A DNA stretch of 47,634 nucleotides, taken from assembly GCA_937124575.1 (NCBI GenBank), contig CAKZKY010000118.1, positions 1 through 47,634 of the forward strand, given 5' to 3'. Under the pieces are notes generated by a model that had not been told where the DNA came from, did no database searches, and saw nothing but the letters and a program-made list of their open reading frames with translations. Below, one piece after another: positions 22,819-43,014 of this stretch; the stretch's first letter is position 1; each line of letters starts with the position of its first letter. The stretch comes from an uncultured Pseudomonadota bacterium (GTDB lineage Bacteria; Desulfobacterota; BSN033; UBA1163). Position numbers and translations under genes: made by a program.

Positions 22819-24291
22819 ATGATGGAAAACCATCTGCATACCTTTGAGGAATATCTTACCTTCGATGACGTCTTATTGGTCCCTTCTTATTCCGAGGTCT
22901 TACCAAAAGAGGTGGATATCTCCACCTTACTGACTCGGGAGATCCGGTTGAATATCCCTCTGGTCAGCGCAGCCATGGACACCGTGACTGAGTCAAGGAC
23001 AGCTATAGCCATGGCTCAAGAAGGAGGAATAGGAATCATCCACCGCAATCTTTCTATCACGGATCAGGCATTGGAGGTGGATAAGGTGAAGAAGTCGGAG
23101 AGTGGAATGATTCTTAACCCCATCACCATGGATCCTGACCAGAAGATCCACGAAGCCCTGGAGGTGATGAGGAGATACCGGATATCAGGAGTTCCCATCA
23201 CCCGAGAGGGCAAGCTCGTTGGAATTCTCACCAACCGAGACCTCCGATTTGAGAAGAGGCTGGACGAGAAGATCTCAACGGTCATGACCAAGGACCGGCT
23301 CATCACGGTCCCTGTGGGAACAACGCTTGAGCAGGCCAAAGAGATCCTTCACCAGAACCGGATCGAGAAATTACTGGTTGTCGATGCTCATAACAATTTG
23401 AAAGGTTTGATCACCATCAAAGATATCGAGAAGATGAGGAAGTACCCCAACTCTTGTAAGGATGCCCATGGACGGCTTCGAGTGGGAGCGGCGATTGGAA
23501 CGGGAAAGGATCGGGAACCGAGAACGGAAGCGCTCATTCGAGCAGGACTCGACGTTCTGGTTATCGATACGGCCCACGGCCATACCAAGGATGTCCTGGA
23601 AGCCATCCGTGATACAAAAAAGAACTTTCCGGGCTGTCAGTTGATCGCTGGAAACATCGCTACCAGAGAGGGGATGCTCGATCTCATCAAGGCAGGGGTG
23701 GATGGGGTTAAGGTTGGCGTTGGGCCAGGCTCAATCTGTACTACGCGGATTATTGCAGGTGTGGGCGTCCCCCAGCTTTCTGCAATCCGTGAGGTCGCTG
23801 AGGTCTCAGAGCAGTATGAGATGCCCATCATTGCCGATGGAGGGATTAAATTTTCAGGGGATATCACTAAGGCCCTTGCCGCCGGAGCCCATTCAGTAAT
23901 GATCGGGAATCTATTTGCTGGCACCGACGAAAGCCCTGGTGAGATCGTTCTCTACCAGGGGAGAAGCTATAAAGTATATCGGGGTATGGGCTCTTTGGAA
24001 GCGATGAGGGAGGGGAGTAAGGATCGCTACATGCAGGCAGAGGTTGAGAGTGAAACGAAACTGGTTCCCGAGGGAATTGAGGGAAGGGTTCCTTATCGAG
24101 GTGCCCTCTCTTTCTGTATCCATCAGCTCGTTGGTGGACTCAAGGCAGGCATGGGATATATGGGCGCAAAGAATATTCCAGAGATGCGGCAGAAGGCTCG
24201 ATTCATCCGGATCACTTCCTCTGGTTTAAAAGAGAGCCATGTCCATGATGTCATCATTACCAAGGAGGCTCCCAATTATAGATTGGAATAG
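22819..24291 (+). CDS. guaB: inosine-5'-monophosphate dehydrogenase
   Basis: NAD-dependent oxidation of IMP to XMP, the committed step of GMP synthesis; cytoplasmic tetramer. 490 aa. TIM-barrel start [17 protein letters not shown], two CBS domains inserted at about 95-205 (regulatory nucleotide binding), catalytic Cys307 in [15 protein letters not shown], the flap region and the [10 protein letters not shown] motif near the C-terminus. ATG at 22819 is followed at once by a second ATG. The 109-nt upstream spacer has no clear promoter. guaA, the next pathway step, lies 3.3 kb downstream on the same strand, separated by two genes of unknown function. Confidence 0.98.
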
Positions 24292-24419: not shown

Positions 24420-26363
24420 TTGAAGAAAAAAACTATTTTGCTCTTGCTTATCATCGTCCTCTCTCTGCTTTACTACCTTGGTTTTCTAACCCGAAAAGAG
24501 ATGCTTCCCCTATCGAAGGAATTCCTCTCCGCAGAGAGTTCTTCCACGATCGAACCGGTGCTTGATCTTAAAGGGGTAGGGGTTATCAAATCGAAGATAG
24601 CGGAAAGGAAACCCCCTTCGTTTGATCAGAAGGAGCTGGATCAACTATACCAGATTCAATTAGATAAGGGGGTTCGTAATCTTTCTACGCTCTCTTTATT
24701 CCTGGTTAGGGAGGCCCGAAAAGCGAGGGAATCTGGTCAACTGGATCGCGCCATCGATCTGGCAACCTATGCCCACCGATTTTCACCAAAACTCCCACAG
24801 CCCTACTTTGAACTGGCGAAGGTCCGATGGAAGCAGAAGCCGTTTCAACTCGACGAAATCTTTCCAGAGATCCTAAAGGGATATAGAGCCAAATTCAGCT
24901 ACTTTCCCTCCTCGCTTTTCGTCTTTTATAATGGGGTTTACATTCTCTCCAATGCGATCCTAATGGCTTTCATCATTTTTGGGATCATCCTCCTCTGGAA
25001 ATACTTTCCAATCTATCTCTATGATATCCGTAGAAATTTGACGCTTGTGGTTCCCAATCTATTTATCAACGGGTTGAAGATCTTCATTCTTTTTATTCCC
25101 TTTTTTCTTCGGTTCGATATCTTGTGGGCGATTCTCTACTGGAATATTCTTTTATGGGGTTTTGTACCGTCCAGGGAGAGACAGATCGTTTTGGTCTTTT
25201 TAATCGTTTTGGTCTATTTACCTTTCGTTCTTCGTACCTCCTCCGCATCTTTAAACAGTCCTGCCTCCGAGATTGTCTTGGAGTTACATGAATCGAACTA
25301 TGAAAACTGGGACAAGATGACAGAAGAGAAATTGAAATCATGGTTGTTAAACCATCCCGATGACGTTCAGGTTCTTTTCACCCTGGGACTGATCGAAAAG
25401 AGGCAGGGACGCTACACGCAAGCCGAAGACTTTTATCGGAGAGTGATCGACTATTCCCCTGAGTTAAGCGAGGCCTATTCCAATCTGGGGAATGTTTATT
25501 TAGCACAGAAACAGATCCGGATGGCCGTTGAATCCTATCAGCGCGCGGTCGAACTCAATCCAAATAAGGGCGGCTATCACTTCAATCTCTATCGTGCCTA
25601 TTCTCAAGAAACCTTTTTCTCAAGTAAATCTGAGGAAGCCTTCCAAATGGCCAGATCCATCGATCCTAAATTGGTTCGGTACTATTCTTCAATCGATTCT
25701 CCCAACATGAACCGATTGGTCATTGATGAAATTCTGACCCACCAGCAGCTCTGGAATCGATTATTGGATGTTTATACTGGAGGAAAAGGGTTACTGTTTC
25801 AATTCTTCAGGGTTTGGTTTGAAAGGATCCCCTCGGCCATTCCATTTCTATCTCCCATCTTCTTTATAGCCTTCCTGGTCGGGATGTCGAGGTATACACG
25901 AGCCAAACGTTTCCTGACCCGATGTCCAATATGCGGGAATGCGACTCATCGGCTCTATTTAGGCCCATCCACAACCTCAGGAAAGGAATTCATCTGTTTT
26001 AACTGCTACCGCCTATATGCCCAGAAGGAGAAGGTCCATCCCAAGCTCAAAGAAAAAAAGTCCCTCCAGGTCCATGCCTTTCAGAAACAGGACCATTTTA
26101 TGGGGACATTTCCTTCCTACTTCTTTATCGGGTTCAGCCAACTCTGGAGGGGCCATGCGTTCAAGGGATTATTGCTCCTTTCCATCTTTTTCATTATCGT
26201 TTTGAGATTTCTCTTCTGGCATGGAGTCCTTCCTGGGTTGGACCTGGGAGTACTCTTTTCATGGTGGAGCTTCTTTTTTTGGGGAGGCCTTTTCGTTCTC
26301 TTCTGGTTTCTCAACTTTCGATGGGTTCGTCGCTTAAAGCCAGAGTTCAAGGTTCCCAGATAA
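24420..26363 (+). CDS. multi-pass membrane protein with TPR repeats and a zinc ribbon, function unknown
   Basis: No function recognised. 647 aa, TTG start. N-terminal membrane anchor about 5-22; a TPR-like helix pair at 93-137 (REARKARESGQLDRAIDLA); a cluster of about four hydrophobic segments at 172-271; a second TPR block at 315-412 with canonical repeats (GRYTQAEDFYRRVIDYSP, AYSNLGNVYLAQKQIRMAVE); a membrane segment at 472-489; a CxxC-CxxC zinc ribbon (C502/C505 in RCPICGN, C526/C529 in CFNCYRLY); and two further membrane segments (583-632). The 128-nt gap after guaB holds no gene. It is followed after 12 nt by the PATAN-domain gene, so the two are probably co-translated. Could be an assembly scaffold in the inner membrane; this is inference from domains only. 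Confidence 0.85.
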   Translation: MKKKTILLLLIIVLSLLYYLGFLTRKEMLPLSKEFLSAESSSTIEPVLDLKGVGVIKSKIAERKPPSFDQKELDQLYQIQLDKGVRNLSTLSLFLVREARKARESGQLDRAIDLATYAHRFSPKLPQPYFELAKVRWKQKPFQLDEIFPEILKGYRAKFSYFPSSLFVFYNGVYILSNAILMAFIIFGIILLWKYFPIYLYDIRRNLTLVVPNLFINGLKIFILFIPFFLRFDILWAILYWNILLWGFVPSRERQIVLVFLIVLVYLPFVLRTSSASLNSPASEIVLELHESNYENWDKMTEEKLKSWLLNHPDDVQVLFTLGLIEKRQGRYTQAEDFYRRVIDYSPELSEAYSNLGNVYLAQKQIRMAVESYQRAVELNPNKGGYHFNLYRAYSQETFFSSKSEEAFQMARSIDPKLVRYYSSIDSPNMNRLVIDEILTHQQLWNRLLDVYTGGKGLLFQFFRVWFERIPSAIPFLSPIFFIAFLVGMSRYTRAKRFLTRCPICGNATHRLYLGPSTTSGKEFICFNCYRLYAQKEKVHPKLKEKKSLQVHAFQKQDHFMGTFPSYFFIGFSQLWRGHAFKGLLLLSIFFIIVLRFLFWHGVLPGLDLGVLFSWWSFFFWGGLFVLFWFLNFRWVRRLKPEFKVPR

Positions 26364-26375
26364 GGAGAGAGGGAT

Positions 26376-27488
26376 ATGGCTCTACAAGGAACATTAAAGG
26401 ACTTTAGCATCACAGAGATTATACAACTGGTTGGCCAACAGCTCAAAACAGGGGTCCTTTGGATACGCCACAGAAAAAAATTGGTCGAAATCTCTTTTGT
26501 GGATGGGATGATCGTCCATGTTCACTCCAATTTCCGGGGGAAGAGAGATCTGATCGGTGAGATTCTCGTCAAGGCCAAATTGATCACCGAAGAACAATTA
26601 GAGAGTGTTCTTAAAATTCAGAAGGAGACATTGAAGTATACCGGAGAGATTCTGGTGGATCTAGGGCTCTTGACGAAAGAGGAAGTCTTAAGGGTGATTG
26701 CAACCCAGGTCTACGAAACGATCTACGATCTTTTCTGGTGGGAGGATGGGATATTTAGTTTCGATCTCAAAATGGTGGAGAGTTATAAGAAGATTCCATT
26801 TGCCCTGAGCACTGAGCAGGTCCTATTGAACATCCTCCGGATGGTGGATGAGTGGTCAGAGATTGAGAAGAAGATCGTCTCCCTGAACCTCGTCTTGCGA
26901 AAATCCTTAAGGAAAGAAGAACAATCGGACGATATCCTCGCTTCCCAAAACATGTTGCGGGAGAAGTTGTCTTCGGAGCAGGAGTTGCTCTACAACCTTG
27001 TCGACGGAACTCGGACCGTCCAAGAGATTATTGATCGGAGCCTTTTCGGAAGGTTTAATGCCTGCGAGACCTTGGTCAGTCTTATGGAGATGGGATTGAT
27101 TGAGGCGGTGGGCATAAAGACCCCGACCTTGCTCAAAAAGGTGAGCACGATCAATTTCAAAGAGGCGCTGGCCTTTGCCTATTACGGAGCCTTCTTGATC
27201 TTTATCTTTCTCCTCCTCATCTACTTTAAACCCAATTTTTTACGTCACTTTTGGGACTCGAAGATCGAACGGGTTGATATGGAGACGCCTGCCCTTTTTG
27301 TCCACCGAGCTCAACTCGACCGGATACGGAACGCACTGGAGATATTCTATTTGGAAAGAGGGGTTTACCCCCAACGGCTTGAGGAGTTGGTGACCGCCCA
27401 GCTCCTCCGGAAAAGCGACCTCTTCTATCACAAAGGGATGTCCTATCAGTATGAGCTGAAAGACGGTAAATATATTTTGAAACATTGA
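26376..27488 (+). CDS. DUF4388 (PATAN) protein with GspE-N-like repeats and a pseudopilin-like tail
   Basis: 370 aa, ATG behind GGAGAGAGG. Residues 1-55 are a PATAN/DUF4388 domain (GTLKDFSITEIIQLVGQQLK, TGVLWI, EISFVDGMIVHVHS). Residues 59-111 hold two helical repeats, GEILVKAKLITEEQL and GEILVDLGLLTKEEV, spaced 29 residues apart, resembling the N-terminal repeats of GspE/PilB ATPases; the local PilB has the same 29-residue offset. A winged-helix-like region follows (200-245). One membrane segment (about 266-284) precedes a C-terminal region (308-370) with RIRNALEIFYLERGVYPQRL, similar in pattern to GspG-type pseudopilins. The function is unknown; an adaptor for a type IV pilus or type II secretion apparatus is a plausible inference. 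Confidence 0.85.
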   Translation: MALQGTLKDFSITEIIQLVGQQLKTGVLWIRHRKKLVEISFVDGMIVHVHSNFRGKRDLIGEILVKAKLITEEQLESVLKIQKETLKYTGEILVDLGLLTKEEVLRVIATQVYETIYDLFWWEDGIFSFDLKMVESYKKIPFALSTEQVLLNILRMVDEWSEIEKKIVSLNLVLRKSLRKEEQSDDILASQNMLREKLSSEQELLYNLVDGTRTVQEIIDRSLFGRFNACETLVSLMEMGLIEAVGIKTPTLLKKVSTINFKEALAFAYYGAFLIFIFLLLIYFKPNFLRHFWDSKIERVDMETPALFVHRAQLDRIRNALEIFYLERGVYPQRLEELVTAQLLRKSDLFYHKGMSYQYELKDGKYILKH

Positions 27489-27547: not shown

Positions 27548-29107
27548 ATGAGCCCTTCTTCCAATTTCGATAAAATTCTTATCCTCGATTTTGGTTCCCA
27601 GTATACCCAATTGATCGCCCGTCGCGTGAGAGAATGTCGGATCTATAGCGAGATTCAACCTTACGATTTTCCACTGGAGAGAATCAAAACCCTCTCTCCC
27701 CAAGGGATCATTCTCTCAGGAGGGCCTTCGAGTGTTTATGAGCTGGGAGCCCCTTCCTGCGATCAAAGGCTTTTCGACATGGGGATTCCCATTTTAGGAA
27801 TCTGTTATGGGATGCAGTTAATCGGCGAACTCTTAGGGGGAGAGGTCGCCCATTCTGAGAAAAGGGAGTATGGAAAAATTCGTTTGACGATCGATCGTGG
27901 GGGAAGCCTGTTTAAAGGGGTTGGAAGAAAAGGAGATTCGTTCCAAGTCTGGATGAGCCACGGCGATCAGATCCGGCGTTTGCCCCGTGGATTTCATGCT
28001 TTGGCCCATTCGAGCCATACACCTTTTGCTGCCATCGGAGATTCGAAAAGAAAGATTTACGGACTTCAATTTCATCCCGAGGTGGTCCACACGCTTCACG
28101 GGATTGACATTCTCCGAAATTTTCTATTCCATGTTTGTGGCTGCCAACGTCTTTGGGACATGCGTTCGTTCTTAGAGGAGGCGACGCTTCAACTGAAGAA
28201 GCGGATCGGTTCGGGAAGGGTGATCTGCGGTTTGAGCGGAGGCGTCGATTCTACAGTGGTTGCTCTTCTTCTGCATCGAGTGATCGGAGATCATTTAAAA
28301 TGTATCTTTGTCAATAATGGACTTTTGAGGCGGAATGAAGCCTCGCAGGTCGTAGAACTCTTCACGCAACATTTCCATATTCCACTCATCTATGTGGATG
28401 CTGAGAAGCGGTTTTTAAAACGGCTCAAGGGGGTAACAGATCCGGAGGAGAAGCGGAAGCGGATCGGTAGAGAGTTTATTGCCGTTTTTGAAAAGGAGGC
28501 AAGAAAGATTGGAGGCGTAAAGTTTCTTGCACAGGGGACCCTCTATCCCGATGTGATTGAAAGCACCTCTTGGAAGGGACCCTCCGCAATGATCAAAAGC
28601 CACCATAATGTAGGTGGATTGCCGGAGAAGATGCGGTTAAAGCTGGTGGAACCCTTACGAGAATTGTTTAAGGACGAAGTGAGAGCTTTGGGCAGAGAGC
28701 TGGGTCTTCCTCGGGAGGTGATCCAGAGGCAACCTTTTCCCGGGCCAGGGCTGGCTGTCCGAATCATCGGCGAGGTCGATCAAGAGAGGCTTGAAATTTT
28801 AAGGGATGCCGATGCGATCGTCATGGAAGAGATGAAGAAGAACGATTTGTTAGACCGGGTCTGGCAATGCTTTGCGGTCCTTCTGCCGATTAAGACCGTT
28901 GGTGTCATGGGCGATTTCCGAACTTATGAGCATGTGGTTGCCTTGAGGATTGTGGAGAGCCAAGACGGCATGACCGCCGATTGGGTCAAGCTGGACCATC
29001 GAATCTTAGAACAGATGGCAAACCGAATCATCAATGAAGTCAGAAAAGTGAATCGAGTCGTGTATGACATCAGTTCGAAACCACCCAGCACGATAGAATG
29101 GGAGTAA
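27548..29107 (+). CDS. guaA: GMP synthase (glutamine-hydrolysing)
   Basis: Amination of XMP to GMP using glutamine-derived ammonia and ATP. 519 aa. The class I amidotransferase domain has the catalytic triad C86 (GICYGMQ), H176 and E178 (LQFHPEVV). The ATP pyrophosphatase P-loop is SGGVDS (230-235). The C-terminal dimerisation domain contains [17 protein letters not shown] and ends [14 protein letters not shown], the normal terminus. ATG at 27548 follows AAGGAAAAG. Functionally paired with guaB upstream, although two unrelated membrane genes intervene. A GC-rich hairpin lies 33 nt after the stop. Confidence 0.98.
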
Positions 29108-35597: not shown

Positions 35598-37001
35598 TTA
35601 GGACTCGTCCATTGGGTCCGGTCCCTGATTCAAACCATATTTTTCCAGTCGGTAGCGCATCGATCGAAAATTAATATGGAGTAATTCAGCGGCCTTCTTT
35701 TTAATCCCCTTTGTCCTTTCGAGGGCTTTCAGGAGAAGGGTCTTCTCGATCTCCTCCACCATCTTTTCGAGATCGATCCCTTCATTCGGAATCTCAAGAT
35801 CCAGAGGGCTTTTGGGAACCTGAAGTTGTTCTTCAAGGTAGGAATGGATATTCTGGGCGGTCAACTCCTGAGAGGTCTCAAGGGCAACAGCCCTCTCAAC
35901 GATATTCTGGAGCTCTCTCACATTTCCAGGATAGTCATATTGGATCAGCATCCGGAGCGCTTCAGGAGTGATATGGGAGATGGGCTTTCCAAGCTCTCCG
36001 GAGTATCGCTTTAAAAAATGGTTGGCCAGGGCCGGAATATCTTCCTTTCGCTCCCGGAGTGGGGGGAGCTTGATCTGAATGACATTGAGTCGGTAGAAGA
36101 GGTCTTCTCGAAACAGTTTCTTTTGAACGGCTTCTTCCAGGTCTTTATTGGTTGCAGAGATGATCCGAACATCGACTCGAATATCTTCCGTTCCTCCCAC
36201 GCGCTTAAATTCTCGATCCTGTAAGACGCGAAGCAATTTGACCTGCATCATTAAGGGAAGCTCACTGATTTCATCCAAAAAGAGCGTTCCCTCATCCGCT
36301 AACTCAAACAGCCCCTTTTTCGTGGTAATGGCATCGGTAAAGGCTCCCTTCATATGGCCAAAGAGTTCGCTCTCGATCAGGGCTTCAGGAATGGCGCCAC
36401 AGTTTAAGTTAACGAAGGGTTTCTCCTTACGCGGGCTATTATAGTGAATGGCTTTGGCCACCAGCTCCTTTCCTGTTCCACTCTCACCCGTGATCAAAAT
36501 GTTGGTTTTGGTAGGAGCCACCCTCTCCAGAAGGTCATAGAGCTCAAGCATTCTAGGACTCTGGCCAATGATATTTCCATAATGGTATCGATCCCGGACC
36601 ACCTGTTTGAGCAGGAGGTTTTCCCTCTGAAGATGCCTCTTCTCCAGAGCATTCTGAATGATCATCTTGATCTCATCGATCTTAAACGGTTTGGTGATAT
36701 AGTCATAAGCCCCCTCCTTCATCGCCTTAATGGCCGTATCGGCTGAGGCATACGCAGTAATCATGATCACAATGGTCTCTGGAGAGACCGATTTAATCTT
36801 CTTGAGAGCAGAGAGGCCATCCTGCCTGGGCATTCGGATATCCACGAGGGCCAGATCGAAGATCTCCTTTTCAATCAACTTGATCACCTCTTCACCATTC
36901 GAGGCGAGTGTGACCTTATAGCCCTCCTTTTTGAGCATGATCTCAAGAAATTCCCTCATGCTCTTTTCATCATCCGCGACCAGAATCTTATCTTGAACCA
37001 T
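35598..37001 (-). CDS. pilR: sigma54-dependent response regulator PilR (NtrC family)
   Basis: 467 aa. Receiver domain 1-120 with phosphoacceptor D54 (LALVDIRMP) and K104 (YITKPF); AAA+ domain with Walker A GESGTGKE (172-179), Walker B GTLFLDE (238-244), sigma54-contact loop written GAFTDA (219-224) instead of GAFTGA; C-terminal Fis-type helix-turn-helix (GIKKKAAELLHINFRSMRYR). From family knowledge it activates pilin transcription with RpoN. It lies 15 nt after pilS, forming a cognate pair at the end of the pilBTCSR unit. Specific assignment to PilR rests on this context. The pilin gene that usually follows is absent: mutL converges immediately. Confidence 0.93.
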   Translation of the reverse strand: MVQDKILVADDEKSMREFLEIMLKKEGYKVTLASNGEEVIKLIEKEIFDLALVDIRMPRQDGLSALKKIKSVSPETIVIMITAYASADTAIKAMKEGAYDYITKPFKIDEIKMIIQNALEKRHLQRENLLLKQVVRDRYHYGNIIGQSPRMLELYDLLERVAPTKTNILITGESGTGKELVAKAIHYNSPRKEKPFVNLNCGAIPEALIESELFGHMKGAFTDAITTKKGLFELADEGTLFLDEISELPLMMQVKLLRVLQDREFKRVGGTEDIRVDVRIISATNKDLEEAVQKKLFREDLFYRLNVIQIKLPPLRERKEDIPALANHFLKRYSGELGKPISHITPEALRMLIQYDYPGNVRELQNIVERAVALETSQELTAQNIHSYLEEQLQVPKSPLDLEIPNEGIDLEKMVEEIEKTLLLKALERTKGIKKKAAELLHINFRSMRYRLEKYGLNQGPDPMDES

Positions 37002-37016
37002 TCTCGTCTTCAGTCC

Positions 37017-38744
37017 TCATTGGGCTTGATGAATATCGGGTTCAGCAGGCAGGAAGATCGTAAAGGTGGACCCTCTGCCCATTTCACTCTCCACCTTGAT
37101 CCCTCCATTATGGTTTTCAATAATTTTATGGACGATCGAGAGTCCCAACCCCGTTCCTCCTTCTTTGGTGGAATAGAAAGGCTCAAAGATTTTCTCCTTT
37201 TCTTGGGGCGGGATACCGTTCCCAGAATCGGCAATGACAATCTTCACCCAAGCCTCTCCAACCCCTGACGAACCTGAAGGAAGGTTTCCTCCCCAAGCCT
37301 CCTCGGTCTTCTCAACGGAGATCCGAATCTCACCCCTTTCCGGGATGGCCTGAGCGGCATTGATCAGCAGATTCCAAAAGACCTGCCTCATCTGATCCGC
37401 ATCGATCAAGGCCAACATTTCACCGTTGGGTTGGCTTCGGGTAATCTGGAGCCCCTCATGAAAGGCCTGAGAGTGGATGAAGAGCTCAACGGTCTCGTCG
37501 AGGATCTTTCCAACCTCCCAAAGCGATCGTCTCATTTGAGGAGGATGAGCGAAGTAGAGGAAGTCAGTGATCAATGAATTGAGTCGTTCCGACTCTCTGA
37601 GCGTGATCTCCATCAAATGGTTCTGTTGTGGGTCGAGGTGAAGCTCCGACTTTAACATCTGGATGGCACCGCTCAGCGATGCAAGAGGGTTTCGAATCTC
37701 ATGGGCCATCCCCGCTGCCAAGGAACCAATGGCAGCCATTCGGTCATGTCGCTTCATCTGTTCTTCCATCTCTTTAACCCGGGTGATGTCCTGAAAGATG
37801 AGGGTATGTCCGATCAAATCCCCTTTGGGATCGGTCAGAGGAGAGATGGAAAACCCTAAGTAGAAAGACCCATCGTGAGGGGTGGGAAGACGGGCCTCGT
37901 AACGCTGGTAATCGGTTGGAAGACTCGGTTTTCGTTTCATTTCCTCGATAACCCTGCTGATCTCGGGGAAAAGACCGTCTATAGAAAGACCTCTCAATTC
38001 AATTCCCTTCCGGTTTAGGATCTTTTCTGCGGTACGGTTGAGGAAATTGATCCGTCCATCCAGATCAATAGTGAGCAGACCACTGTCGAGGCTATTCACG
38101 ATATTCCGGTTGAAGATCTCAAGTTGATCATAATCTGCCTGTTTCTGAATCAGTTCGCCCTTTTTCTTCTTTAATTCCTCAGAGATCATACTGCTCAGAA
38201 AGGCGACGATATAATAGGCGGCTAAATAGATGACCAGGGAGTAAAAGATCTGACTGGCCTCAGGCGGATCGAGCTGACCTGGGAGACGGACCCACTCATA
38301 GAGTTGAAACAGAAGGATCAGACCATAAAGAAAGGTGGAGAGGGATGCTGAATAGAAAGCTCCCCGCTTGTAGAAGAGGATACTGCAGCCGATGATCGAG
38401 AAGATGTAAACGATCGGGAAGAAGCTCTCCTTTCCGCCCGTATAGTAGATGAGACCTGCAATGAAAAGATGGTCAATGGCGATCTGAACAATCATGAAAC
38501 GACGAAGATCATTGACCCGTTTCAGGAGAAGAACATAGGCGATTGTGAGCAGATAGAAGAGCATGATGAAATAGTAGAATTGGTTGGTGGTCGGAATGAA
38601 GAAGTACTTCTTCTCGTAGATTTGGAAAAGATAGGTAATGGTCAGTAAGAGGGTAAGAATGATTACCCGGCCGAGCATCAATCCCAATACATTTTTATAC
38701 ATTCGTTGTTGGGTGCTGGCGAGAACGTTAAGATTTGGCCCCAT
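37017..38744 (-). CDS. pilS: sensor histidine kinase PilS
   Basis: 575 aa, inner membrane. Six hydrophobic segments lie between about 24 and 185 with almost no periplasmic loop, as in PilS proteins that sense within the membrane. A PAS domain spans about 208-320 (DSGLLTIDLDGRINFLNRTA), then HisKA with H348 (GMAHEIRNPLASLSG) and a HATPase domain with the N box (NLLINAAQAI), VIADSGNGIP and GTGLGLSIVH. The cognate regulator is the adjacent pilR. From Pseudomonas and Myxococcus, PilS monitors pilin levels; that role is inferred here. The 112-nt gap to pilC contains GAAAGT/ACTTTC that could form a small hairpin. No strong SD is visible. Confidence 0.92.
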   Translation of the reverse strand: MGPNLNVLASTQQRMYKNVLGLMLGRVIILTLLLTITYLFQIYEKKYFFIPTTNQFYYFIMLFYLLTIAYVLLLKRVNDLRRFMIVQIAIDHLFIAGLIYYTGGKESFFPIVYIFSIIGCSILFYKRGAFYSASLSTFLYGLILLFQLYEWVRLPGQLDPPEASQIFYSLVIYLAAYYIVAFLSSMISEELKKKKGELIQKQADYDQLEIFNRNIVNSLDSGLLTIDLDGRINFLNRTAEKILNRKGIELRGLSIDGLFPEISRVIEEMKRKPSLPTDYQRYEARLPTPHDGSFYLGFSISPLTDPKGDLIGHTLIFQDITRVKEMEEQMKRHDRMAAIGSLAAGMAHEIRNPLASLSGAIQMLKSELHLDPQQNHLMEITLRESERLNSLITDFLYFAHPPQMRRSLWEVGKILDETVELFIHSQAFHEGLQITRSQPNGEMLALIDADQMRQVFWNLLINAAQAIPERGEIRISVEKTEEAWGGNLPSGSSGVGEAWVKIVIADSGNGIPPQEKEKIFEPFYSTKEGGTGLGLSIVHKIIENHNGGIKVESEMGRGSTFTIFLPAEPDIHQAQ

Positions 38745-38856
38745 AGAACTCGATCATTGGTCTTCATTGAGGCTGGCTAATTTCAGTAAGCCCTGTTTGA
38801 AAGTTTTTAACTTTCTAACGGGAAGTTTCACAGCCCAATAGAAGCTCAGCAAGCAA

Positions 38857-40062
38857 TTACCCAACGGCCGATGCCATCTGAAAGATCGGTAGATACATGG
38901 CAATGACAACTCCTCCGATCACGACTCCCAGAAAGATCATCAGAAAAGGTTCGAGAAGGGAGGTCATATTGCCTACAGCCACGTCAACCTCTTCTTCGTA
39001 GAAATCGGCGATCTTTGCCAACATGGAGTCCAAGGCGCCTGTCGATTCTCCTACGGAGATCATCTGGATGACCATGGGTGGAAAGATCCCACTGCGGCCC
39101 AAAGGCTCAGAAATGGTTTCGCCCTCTCGGATGCTTGCCCTTGCTTCGAGTATGGCTGTCTCAATTGTCCGATTTCCGGCTGTCTTCGAAACGATCATGA
39201 GCCCGTCAAGGATGGGAACGCCACTGCTGACGAGTGTCCCAAGGGTCCTTGAAAATCGGGCTACGGCAACTTTTTTAAGAAGCATTCCGAAGACAGGCAG
39301 CTTCAGAAGAAGGGGATCGACGATCGTCTTTCCTGCCTCGGTCTTATAAAACTTCCGGAAAAGATAGACCAAGAGAATCGCCAAAGGAATAAGGACGATG
39401 ATATATTTTTTGATAAATTTGCTTAGGGTGAGAACGATAAGGGTCGGTAGTGGAAGCGACTGACCAGCGGATTTGAACATCGTCTCAAAGACAGGGATGA
39501 CGAAGATCATCAAGATCATCACCACCATCACCGCAACCGTCACGATGATGCCAGGATAGATCAGGGCGCCCTTAACTTTCTTTTTTAAGGCTTCTGCCTT
39601 TTCAATGTAGTTGGCCAATCGGAGCAGAATATTGTCGAGGATTCCACCTTCCTCACCGGCCACCACCAAGTTCGTGTAGAGATCATCGAAAGTGCCGGGA
39701 TGTTTTTTGAGAGATCCGGCAAAGGTGGAACCTCCTTCGACATCCTCTCGTAAATCACGAATGATATTTTTAAAAATCTTGTTCTCCTGTTGGGAGGCGA
39801 GGATATCGAGCGATTGGACCAGAGGTAATCCGGCATCAATCATCGTTGCCAATTGACGGGTGAAGATGGCGACGAGTCGCTGCTTCACCTTCTTACCAAA
39901 TGGCAGGGAAATCTTAACCGCTCTTCCTTTGGCCGTGATTTTGGTGGGAATAATGTTCTGTTGGTGAAGTTGGATGCGGATGGCAGCCTCGCTCGGAGCT
40001 TCCATCTCTCCCTTTTTGATCAATCCCTTGCCTGTTTTCCCTTCCCATTGGTAGATTGGCAT
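38857..40062 (-). CDS. pilC: type IV pilus inner-membrane platform protein PilC
   Basis: GspF/PilC-family platform protein, 401 aa. N-terminal MPIYQWEGKTGKGLIKKGEM; two T2SSF domains: the first at about 68-190 (FTRQLATMIDAGLPLVQSLD ... KKVKGALIYPGIIVTVAVMV) and the second at about 270-395 (VARFSRTLGTLVSSGVPILD ... LLEPFLMIFLGVVIGGVVIA). Three membrane segments, around 170-195, 218-238 and 372-395. PilC couples the cytoplasmic PilB/PilT motors to the growing pilus. SD GGGAGG precedes the ATG. Follows pilT by 26 nt. Confidence 0.96.
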   Translation of the reverse strand: MPIYQWEGKTGKGLIKKGEMEAPSEAAIRIQLHQQNIIPTKITAKGRAVKISLPFGKKVKQRLVAIFTRQLATMIDAGLPLVQSLDILASQQENKIFKNIIRDLREDVEGGSTFAGSLKKHPGTFDDLYTNLVVAGEEGGILDNILLRLANYIEKAEALKKKVKGALIYPGIIVTVAVMVVMILMIFVIPVFETMFKSAGQSLPLPTLIVLTLSKFIKKYIIVLIPLAILLVYLFRKFYKTEAGKTIVDPLLLKLPVFGMLLKKVAVARFSRTLGTLVSSGVPILDGLMIVSKTAGNRTIETAILEARASIREGETISEPLGRSGIFPPMVIQMISVGESTGALDSMLAKIADFYEEEVDVAVGNMTSLLEPFLMIFLGVVIGGVVIAMYLPIFQMASAVG

Positions 40063-40088
40063 AATCCCTCCCCTTCCCCTATCTCCGT

Positions 40089-41189
40089 TTAAATGACCTG
40101 TTTCCCAATCTTTCTATAGGGGATATTCGCATTGGTTAGCATCTGATAGAACTCTTCCAAGTTATGGCTTCGGTCGATGGCGTCTTCCACAGAGATGAGA
40201 TGGCGTTCGACAAGGGCGAGGAGTGCCTGGTTCATGGTCTGCATACCGAATTTTGACTGACCGACCTGCATCTGGGAGTAGATCTGTTGAACTTTGTCCT
40301 CACGGATCAGGTTTCGAATGGCAGCGGTTGGGATCATCAACTCCATGGCCATGACACGACCTTTCCCACGCATTCTTGGAATGAGCTGTTGGGACATAAC
40401 TCCCTCAAGGACGAAGGAGAGCTGTGTCCGCACCTGTTGTTGTTGATGAGGAGGAAAGACGTCAATGATCCGGTTGATCGTCTCGACGCAGGAATTCGTA
40501 TGGAGCGTTGCAAAGGTGAGATGGCCTGTCTCTGCGGTGAGGAGGGCGGCCTGAATCGTCTCAAGATCCCTCATTTCGCCGATGAGGATAATATCGGGAT
40601 CCTGACGCAGAATATGCTTAAGGGCATAGCCAAAACCTTTTGTATCGGAGTAAATCTCCCTCTGATTGACGATGGAATTTTTATGGCGATGGATATATTC
40701 AATCGGATCTTCGATCGTCACAATATGGGCGTTCCGATCATTATTGATCTTGTCGATCATGGCTGCAAGGGTGGTCGATTTTCCCGAACCCGTAGGGCCT
40801 GTTACGAGAACGAGGCCCTTGGGTCTCTTAATCAACTCATTCACAGCAGGTGGAATTCCAAGTTCATGGAAGTTGAGGATATTGAATGGGATGGCACGGA
40901 AGACGCCCGCCACAGCTCCCCTCTGCATAAAGATATTTCCACGGAAACGGCTTAACCCTTTTATGCCAAAAGAGAAATCTAACTCTATCTCTTCCTCGAA
41001 CGTGTGGCGCTGGGCATCGGTCAGAACGCTGTAGCAGAGCCTTTTCGTATCGGTAGGGGTAAGGATAGTATTATCGAAGCTCACCAGCTTTCCGTCAATC
41101 CTGAACTTTGGTGGGACGCCTGTTGTAATGTGCAAATCAGAGGCCTTCTTTTCGATCATCGTTTCAAGCAGTTTCTCTAACTCGATCAT
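40089..41189 (-). CDS. pilT: twitching motility ATPase PilT
   Basis: Retraction motor of the type IV pilus, 366 aa hexameric AAA+-like ATPase. N-terminal PAS-like domain (SDLHITTGVPPKFRIDGKLV), Walker A GPTGSGKST (131-139), Asp box IVTIEDPIEYIH, Walker B ILIGEMRDLETI, His box GHLTFATLHTN, and the PilT-specific C-terminal AIRNLIREDK motif required for retraction. The signature distinguishes it from PilB-type extension ATPases. SD AGAGGA before the ATG; 31 nt after pilB. Confidence 0.97.
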   Translation of the reverse strand: MIELEKLLETMIEKKASDLHITTGVPPKFRIDGKLVSFDNTILTPTDTKRLCYSVLTDAQRHTFEEEIELDFSFGIKGLSRFRGNIFMQRGAVAGVFRAIPFNILNFHELGIPPAVNELIKRPKGLVLVTGPTGSGKSTTLAAMIDKINNDRNAHIVTIEDPIEYIHRHKNSIVNQREIYSDTKGFGYALKHILRQDPDIILIGEMRDLETIQAALLTAETGHLTFATLHTNSCVETINRIIDVFPPHQQQQVRTQLSFVLEGVMSQQLIPRMRGKGRVMAMELMIPTAAIRNLIREDKVQQIYSQMQVGQSKFGMQTMNQALLALVERHLISVEDAIDRSHNLEEFYQMLTNANIPYRKIGKQVI

Positions 41190-41220
41190 AGTGGTCCTCT
41201 ACTTCCTTTCCTTGTTGAAA

Positions 41221-43014
41221 TTATCGATCGTCCACGGTTGATCTGAAGACTTCTTCAATGGAAGTCAGCCCATCTCGGATCTTGATGATTCCGCTCTGCC
41301 TCAAGGTCTTCATGCCCAAACGGATGGCCTCTTTCTTTATTTCCGAAGTGGATGCTCGGGCCAAGATCAGTTCTTTGATCTCATCCTTAATGGCCATGAC
41401 CTCATAGAGCCCGACCCGACCTTTATAGCCTGTATTGTTGCAAATGGGACATCCTTTTCCTTTGTAAACTTGAAAGGTTTTTACCTCGTCTGGCGCAACC
41501 CCAAGATCGATCAGTAGCTGGGGGTGAACCTTGATCGGTTCCCGACACTCTGTGCAGATTTTACGGACCAATCTCTGAGCCAGGATGAGGATGACAGCAG
41601 ATGAGATCAAAAAGGGTTCAATACCCATATCAATCAATCGGGTTATGGTGCCCGGTGCATCATTGGTGTGAACGGTGCTAAGAACGAGGTGGCCAGTCAG
41701 GGCTGCTTGGACAGCAATCTGGGCGGTCTCAAAATCTCGGATCTCGCCTACCATGATGATATCCGGGTCCTGTCGGAGAAAGGACCTCAGGGCTGATGCG
41801 AAGGTGAGTCCGATCTCCTCATGCATCTGAACCTGATTGATTCCCATAAAATTATACTCAACAGGATCTTCAGCAGTGGTGATATTCTCCGTCTCTTTAT
41901 TCAATTCAGATAGCGCTGAATAGAGGGTGGTCGTCTTTCCACTTCCTGTAGGTCCTGTGACGAGAATCATCCCCACGGGTTTTCGAAGGGCATTTTTAAA
42001 ATCTTCAAGAGACGATTCTTCGAATCCCAGTTTGGTCATGTCCAATTGCAAGGCCGATTTGTCCAGAAGACGGAGCACGACCTTTTCTCCAAAAAGGACA
42101 GGGACCGTAGAGACCCGGAAGTCCATCTCCCGGCCTTTGCCGAGGCGCATTTTGATCCGGCCGTCCTGTGGAAGACGCCTTTCTGCAATATCGAGCTTGG
42201 CCATGATTTTTAGACGGGAGACGAGGGCATTTTTAATCTGTATTGGAAGGGTCATCTCTCGCCTCAGAACACCATCAACACGATAACGGACCCGGAAAGT
42301 CCTCTCATAAGGTTCGAAGTGGATGTCGCTTGCACCCAATTTGATCGCCTTGATCAGTATTCCGTTGACGATCTTGATGATCGGCCCTCCGATCTCATCC
42401 GTTGCATCTTCCGCTTGAGTTTCGACAACCTCAACATTATCAATCGCTCCTTGGACCAACTTGTCAAATTCATCGACATCGACCAGAGTGCTGTCCATGA
42501 GATCAAAATCAGCATCCGTAGATTTATCATCATCCAAAGTATAATCTTTGGCATTGATGGTTGCGGTGCCCATTGAGGCTGTAGCCCCTCCACCGCTGTA
42601 ATATTTTTTAATGGCATCAACGATTTCTGTTTCCGAGGCAACTACCGGCTCGACATTGAACCCGGTCATAAACTTGATCTCATCGATGACGAAGATATTG
42701 CTTGGATCCGCCATGGCCAAGGTCAGTTTGGGGCCTACTCGGTTGATTGGGAAGATATAATATTTTTTGGCCATGCTTGACGGGATCAACTTAATGACAT
42801 TGGGGTTGATTTCGAGTTTGGAGATTTTTACAGATGGGACTCGGTACTGAGCGCTCAGGAAGGCGAGGAGTTCATCCTCCTTAATAAAGCCCAACTTGAT
42901 CAGGTTAGATTCTAAGCGGCCTCCTTTCAATTTCTGTTCATCCTGTACCTTTTTTAGCTGATCAGGAGTAATAATGTTTCGCTTAATGAGGAGGTCGGCT
43001 AATCGTTCTGACAT
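41221..43014 (-). CDS. pilB: type IV pilus assembly ATPase PilB
   Basis: Extension motor, 597 aa. The N-terminal GspE-N/MshEN-like region (1-140) contains two helical repeats starting near R4 and R33; the usual RLG of the c-di-GMP-binding MshEN motif is RLA and RLE here, so nucleotide binding is doubtful. An acidic, low-complexity linker spans about 140-205. Core: SDIHFEPYERTFRVRYRVDG, Walker A GPTGSGKT (354-361), Walker B IIMVGEIRDFETAQ, His box GHLVLSTVHTN, and a four-Cys zinc site (C487, C490, C522, C525). First gene of the minus-strand pilBTCSR block; SD GAGGTAG. Confidence 0.96.
   Translation of the reverse strand: MSERLADLLIKRNIITPDQLKKVQDEQKLKGGRLESNLIKLGFIKEDELLAFLSAQYRVPSVKISKLEINPNVIKLIPSSMAKKYYIFPINRVGPKLTLAMADPSNIFVIDEIKFMTGFNVEPVVASETEIVDAIKKYYSGGGATASMGTATINAKDYTLDDDKSTDADFDLMDSTLVDVDEFDKLVQGAIDNVEVVETQAEDATDEIGGPIIKIVNGILIKAIKLGASDIHFEPYERTFRVRYRVDGVLRREMTLPIQIKNALVSRLKIMAKLDIAERRLPQDGRIKMRLGKGREMDFRVSTVPVLFGEKVVLRLLDKSALQLDMTKLGFEESSLEDFKNALRKPVGMILVTGPTGSGKTTTLYSALSELNKETENITTAEDPVEYNFMGINQVQMHEEIGLTFASALRSFLRQDPDIIMVGEIRDFETAQIAVQAALTGHLVLSTVHTNDAPGTITRLIDMGIEPFLISSAVILILAQRLVRKICTECREPIKVHPQLLIDLGVAPDEVKTFQVYKGKGCPICNNTGYKGRVGLYEVMAIKDEIKELILARASTSEIKKEAIRLGMKTLRQSGIIKIRDGLTSIEEVFRSTVDDR

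Follow-up and report, generated by a model that had tools for sequence, protein, structure and literature searches.

What do two adjacent genes do that lie between guaB and guaA in a 47,634-nt stretch of DNA (the window) and encode a multi-span TPR protein and a PATAN protein with a pseudopilin-like tail? Our analysis of these ORFs, termed A (upstream) and B (downstream), suggests that they form an inner-membrane effector, i.e., an output module, of MglA/MglB-type GTPase polarity signalling that acts on the type IVa pilus machine, an explanation to which we give an even chance of being correct.

A gene pair conserved across phyla

Both ORFs were found where the first-pass annotation had placed them, at positions 24420–27488 with a 12-nt spacer in between (Table 1). 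A clear Shine-Dalgarno sequence (AAGGAG) precedes the ATG of B, and the position of the TTG start of A is common to its aligned relatives, many of which likewise use TTG. On the plus strand the gene order in the window is hflX-guaB-A-B-guaA-dnaE-accA-mutL, where hflX, guaB, guaA, dnaE, and accA were named from their sequences. Promoter and terminator scans of the regions flanking A-B gave scores no better than those of shuffled sequences.

Table 1. Coordinates of the A and B genes, their protein domains, and selected neighbouring or related genes (window positions unless a contig is given).
Feature	Position	Strand	Basis or remark
Gene A, multi-span membrane protein with two helical/TPR blocks and zinc ribbon (predicted cytosolic)	24420-26363	+	TTG start, 647 aa
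A residues 66-165, first helical block (TPR-like), predicted periplasmic	24615-24914	+	AF2 model, topology
A residues 281-468, TPR superhelix, predicted periplasmic	25260-25823	+	Pfam, AF2 model, Foldseek, topology
A residues 502-529, CxxC-x20-CxxC ribbon, predicted cytosolic	25923-26006	+	invariant cysteines, topology
Gene B, PATAN-winged helix-TM-GspG-like tail	26376-27488	+	ATG start, 370 aa
B residues 1-178, PATAN/DUF4388 including helical insertion	26376-26909	+	Pfam PF14332 E 2e-30, model
B residues 56-112, MshEN/GspE_N-like helical insertion, two 24-residue motifs without guanine-stacking arginines	26541-26711	+	profile and structure-profile matches
B residues 187-250 (187-247 in model), winged helix, net acidic	26934-27125	+	model, charge
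B residues 263-285 (about), single membrane span	27162-27230	+	topology, model
B residues 304-370, GspG (T2SSG)-like tail, predicted periplasmic	27285-27485	+	conservation, Pfam, hhalign
guaB (IMP dehydrogenase), neighbour 5' of A in the window's class	22819-24291	+	named from sequence
guaA (GMP synthase), neighbour 3' of B	27548-29107	+	named from sequence
pilR	35598-37001	-	two-component pair with pilS
pilS	37017-38744	-	two-component pair with pilR
pilC (T2SSF family)	38857-40062	-	
pilT, retraction ATPase	40089-41189	-	above TIGR01420 cut-off
pilB, extension ATPase with MshEN	41221-43014	-	above TIGR02538 cut-off
Example of a short PATAN-winged-helix protein	G048:C13:227377-228069		

Searches of a genome collection with B as query revealed 54 loci encoding B relatives; in 50 of these A lies directly upstream in the same order, usually with a gap of ~10 nt. 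The pair is found in Thermodesulfobacteriota, Zymogenaceae, Acidobacteriota (including Thermoanaerobaculia), Aminicenantes, Nitrospirota, Eisenbacteria, and UASB270, and is present in 55 of the 197 genomes of our phylum sample. Since homologous pairs occur in many phyla, a chance pairing of ORFs is ruled out, and the TPR protein, previously suggested as a partner of B, is indeed its constant genetic partner.

Some PATAN proteins related to B occur outside the pair. Genomes of family f29 (G048, G085, G111, G134, G156, G196, and G214) encode short (~296 aa) PATAN-winged-helix proteins matching the cytosolic part of B, and a convincing A was not found in these genomes. In an Actinobacteria MAG, a gene for a B-like PATAN protein without A (L113:3324-5543) is located beside that of a CheR methyltransferase with TPRs.

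Genomic neighbourhood and co-occurrence

The A-B pair is found in three settings: guaB-A-B-guaA, which is seen in the window's class and others; A-B-phoH-pgpH-ybeY-lnt; and TPR-mglA-A-B. In L083, L093, L094, and L098, the pair precedes phoH-pgpH-ybeY-lnt-prfB instead of lying between guaB and guaA. Thus, A-B has settled in differing housekeeping operons, and in many lineages it resides within such operons with no pilus genes adjacent.

A gene for an mglA-type GTPase is located directly 5' of A-B in 22 genomes from five families. TPR-mglA-A-B cassettes are represented by L048, L049, L051, L139, and L140, the additional TPR protein having no predicted membrane role, and a Nitrospirota locus (L109) shows the order mglA-mglB(Roadblock)-A-B. 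The mglA ORFs adjoining A-B are long, mostly 290–455 aa. Long C-terminal extensions were seen in MglA proteins with total lengths of 311–453 aa at L139:8797-10155, L140:5879-6958, L048:6335-7426, and L051:9482-10414.

Where A-B lies between guaB and guaA, pilBTCSR comes next. The window itself harbors a complete pilB-pilT-pilC-pilS-pilR block on the minus strand (35598–43014), 8 kb from A-B, and four families (f1, f2, f12, and f14) contribute eight more genomes in which pilT is found ~14–24 kb from A. A fragment from the window's family (L136:49-7622) encodes, in this order, a REC-PATAN protein, a Roadblock protein (MglB), MglA, a CheW-like protein, a histidine kinase, a response regulator, and pilM-pilN-pilO; REC in the first ORF was named from sequence, the Pfam match covering the DUF4388 part only. 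The window's own genome also carries mglB-mglA (L137). Runs of four ORFs after A-B in L096 and L103 (244–256, 188–192, 221–228, and 197–225 aa) resembled pilMNOP by size alone and were rejected as such: in L103 they correspond to a pseudouridine synthase, a sigma factor, a zinc-finger protein, and a fourth protein without a Pfam match.

Among the 197 genomes, PilT is present in all 55 with A-B compared to 114 of the 142 others (Fisher p 6e-5), and MglA in 48 of 55 compared to 63 of 142 (p 2e-8), although these p-values overstate independence because the genomes are related. PilM does not discriminate between the two groups (50/55 versus 122/142; p 0.48). MglA was not detectable in seven A-B genomes. 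Some A-B genomes of f14, f12, and f36 lack a PilM match, but all have PilT. Recurrent gene adjacency is stronger evidence than such co-occurrence tests, which ignore relatedness. Co-occurrence of the pair with pilus or secretion genes, which the first-pass annotation had proposed as a test, is borne out for pilus genes by PilT and by the pil operon of the window; that annotation had mentioned neither the link to MglA nor the ordered pairing in several phyla nor the presence of pilBTCSR in the same stretch.

The guaBA and phoH-lnt contexts could also reflect a housekeeping function, in which case A-B would serve envelope homeostasis in general rather than piliation in particular, and its co-occurrence with pili would be background, in keeping with their near-universal presence in the phylum sample (PilT in 169/197 genomes). 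We consider this rather improbable, since none of the 28 genomes lacking PilT carries A-B, mglA adjoins the pair in five families plus a further phylum, and B ends in a GspG-like tail.

Domain organization of B and A

B is predicted to be a cytoplasmic regulator that is tied by a single span to a pseudopilin-like periplasmic piece, as had been proposed (pLDDT of the B model, 83). The PATAN domain, winged helix, span, and tail of the earlier description were all recovered; the "two helical repeats" it listed as extra elements are the two MshEN motifs of the PATAN insertion.

The 67-residue tail is conserved as far as other phyla and carries a YP or FP hook in 45 of 50 homologues. Comparison with 11 true GspG proteins from related genomes by hhalign, the check suggested at the outset, yielded a match with a probability of 98.2% (E 2.8e-14, 59 columns), and 98.5% over 80 columns when the span was added, whereas controls with GspH/I/J or with other domains of B all stayed below 1%. 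The aligned region comprises the helix, the YP hook, and the DPWG..Y region, and the tail matches the major pseudopilin GspG (PF08334) as far as the beginning of the tail's beta region. In line with this, Pfam T2SSG matches nine of ten B tails (best E 3e-5); one family member (G060) exceeds the curated cut-off, the window's tail alone falls below it, and a search with the whole B of the window as a single protein gave T2SSG at E 0.11 only. A PDB profile search with the tail returned no significant match, GspG ranking top. These profile comparisons support homology of the tail to GspG.

However, the prepilin signal (G-F-T-L-x-E, with the G(-1)/E5 cleavage and methylation site) was not found in B, and unlike in GspG the span is internal and preceded by an N-terminal PATAN domain. 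Because this signal is lacking, B is not a pseudopilin, and the earlier label "pseudopilin-like" applies to the GspG match but not to a pilin or pseudopilin identity. Nor is the tail a constant part of the family: GspG-like in the window, it ends soon after the hook in families f12 and f21 and is missing in f10, f34, f44, and f47. An in-frame TGA considered in B of f21 was rejected, as it represents the normal end of a gene with a shorter tail.

As the tail matches GspG specifically rather than GspH/I/J, the pair might serve type II secretion, with the tail docking to T2SS pseudopilins instead of type IV pili; true GspG is also encoded in most A-B genomes among the 16 tested. We regard this as unlikely. 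Three of the 16, G034 (99% complete), G011, and G060, have a tailed B and no convincing GspG, which argues against a T2SS-only role, and the genes linked to A-B are pilBTC/pilMNO and mglA, not gsp.

The succession of winged helix, span, and periplasmic domain, together with a gene for a membrane partner only 12 nt away, would also suit a membrane-bound transcription factor of the ToxR/CadC kind, with the tail as sensor and A as a ToxS-like periplasmic partner. A basic, DNA-binding winged helix of this type was not found in B: in 50 homologues the mean net charge is −3.2 for residues 195–250 and −1.0 for the recognition helix, so that DNA binding is unlikely. Since the winged helix moreover sits behind a PATAN domain and its constant genetic linkage is with genes for the GTPase and for pili, not with a regulon, we think it very unlikely that B is such a factor.

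The N-terminal part belongs to the PATAN family (PF14332, 105.7 bits; cut-off 25), and a Pfam search for a receiver domain (Response_reg) was negative, which separates B from PATAN-REC proteins. Its insertion matches N-domain structures of PilB/MshE (E 5e-23). The title of the 2006 PATAN paper, as cited in PMC4316618, refers to an "alpha-helical insertion"; since this insertion belongs to PATAN, the "PATAN-GspE-N" combination announced as a new fusion is one known domain. Like MshEN of PilB/MshE/GspE, the insertion contains two tandem 24-residue motifs with equal spacing, and residues 60–111 score above the cut-off of the MshE-type c-di-GMP motif model NF053729 (52.2 versus 38 bits). However, the RLG arginines of both motifs, which stack on guanine in MshE (PMC5013675), are replaced by L59 and Y88 in B, and arginine occurs at the two sites in only 9/50 and 4/50 homologues, which makes c-di-GMP binding doubtful. 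That B is a c-di-GMP receptor gating pilus assembly through this insertion, as its NF053729 score and MshE-like motif spacing might suggest, is highly improbable given the lost arginines, and of the 50 Foldseek matches listed for B only one (weak, E 0.36) was a structure of the MshEN type, namely GSPII-A of PilF, an MshEN-like domain without c-di-GMP binding (PMC12002112).

The description of A as a multi-pass protein with two TPR blocks and a CxxC...CxxC ribbon held throughout, as it has 8–9 membrane spans, Pfam TPR matches around residues 315–390 (E about 1e-17), and four ribbon cysteines (C502, C505, C526, and C529) that are invariant across 45 homologues. Hydropathy averaged over these homologues places spans at ~4–24, 174–194, 216–243, 251–278, 473–493, 580–600, and 614–634, where 216–243 is either a single span or a hairpin and forms three short helices in the AF2 model (mean pLDDT 82, pTM 0.80). 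The N-terminal helical block comprises residues 70–160 in this model, with which Foldseek found generic TPR superhelices only. Because the surroundings of the ribbon close to the membrane are rich in K/R and poor in D/E, we favor a topology with a cytosolic ribbon and periplasmic TPR blocks, a prediction that hinges on 216–243 being a hairpin. Compared with pilotin-type TPR lipoproteins (PilW/PilF/Tgl), A scores below the NCBIfam cut-offs (28.4 versus 154 bits for PilW, 25 versus 225 for Tgl), and the PilW/Tgl matches are limited to its TPR part.

A candidate link between MglA and the pilus

In the effector explanation that we favor, the cytoplasmic PATAN-MshEN-winged-helix part of B would receive the signal and dock on the pilus motor (PilB/PilC) or on MglA. 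On the periplasmic side of the single span, the GspG-like domain would offer a surface resembling that of a pilin and meet the TPR domain of A, which would hold the tail; from there it could influence the assembly of the pilus (minor pilins). The cytosolic zinc ribbon of A may provide a second docking site; the gliding protein GltJ binds MglA via a zinc ribbon. The physical A-B complex, the membrane topology, the binding partner of B, and a control of pilus placement or activity are what we infer. Support comes from the domains found in both proteins, the constancy with which A and B are linked, the adjacency of mglA, the pil neighbourhood, and the co-occurrence with PilT and MglA, whereas the non-discriminating PilM, the seven A-B genomes without MglA, the housekeeping operons, and the shortening or loss of the tail in whole families speak against it. 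Tentatively, and with less confidence, we suggest that MglA-type GTPases of several phyla could have A-B as a dedicated effector spanning the inner membrane: PATAN would read the state of the GTPase and relay it across the membrane to the pilin mimic, which would prime or block pilus assembly, with the periplasmic TPR of A as holder.

Several of these elements have counterparts in known systems. PixE, a response regulator of Synechocystis with a PATAN domain, is reported to act on the motor of type IV pili by binding the ATPase PilB1 (PMC9090330, PMC7690835). The cyanobacterial PATAN-REC regulators PixE, PixG, and LsiR share the PATAN domain with helical insertion, whereas B has no receiver, adds a winged helix, a span, and a GspG-like tail, and is constantly accompanied by the TPR membrane protein. 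In Myxococcus, MglA drives type IVa pili via the TPR protein SgmX and the placement of PilB, which SgmX achieves by a mechanism called unknown (PMC11580455). MglA and a TPR protein recur here, an additional TPR protein being encoded in the TPR-mglA-A-B cassette, but SgmX, which contains 14 TPRs, functions together with MglA at the leading pole, whereas A is a membrane protein with TPRs predicted to be periplasmic.

Because PATAN genes near mglA/mglB have been reported (Wuichet and Sogaard-Andersen 2014, PMC4316618; Makarova 2006), the A-B system is not free of precedent. The TPR/zinc-ribbon partner and the pseudopilin-like tail were not found in the passages searched. The first-pass suggestion of an undescribed system is therefore upheld for the A partner and the architecture of B, for which our limited literature search found no description, but not for the link of PATAN proteins to MglA and type IV pili, which is known. 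By analogy, A-B may fit in as a membrane-anchored member of the PATAN/MglA/type IV pilus proteins; a GTPase-to-pilin conduit of this kind was likewise not described in the literature searched.

The switching of type IV pili at one pole by MglA-type GTPases has been worked out mainly in Myxococcus. Joining a PATAN module to a pilin-like domain and lying beside mglA in several lineages, A-B is a tangible candidate for what connects the cytoplasmic GTPase to pilus assembly in the envelope, a link still missing, and one testable by deletion.

No significant match was obtained when the B model was searched with Foldseek. Chains of GATOR1/KICSTOR, which are platforms for Rag GTPases, ranked top and were not used (E 0.025, TM 0.17, rmsd 18.5); from these weak matches, a likeness of PATAN to longin/roadblock plus winged-helix folds appears possible.
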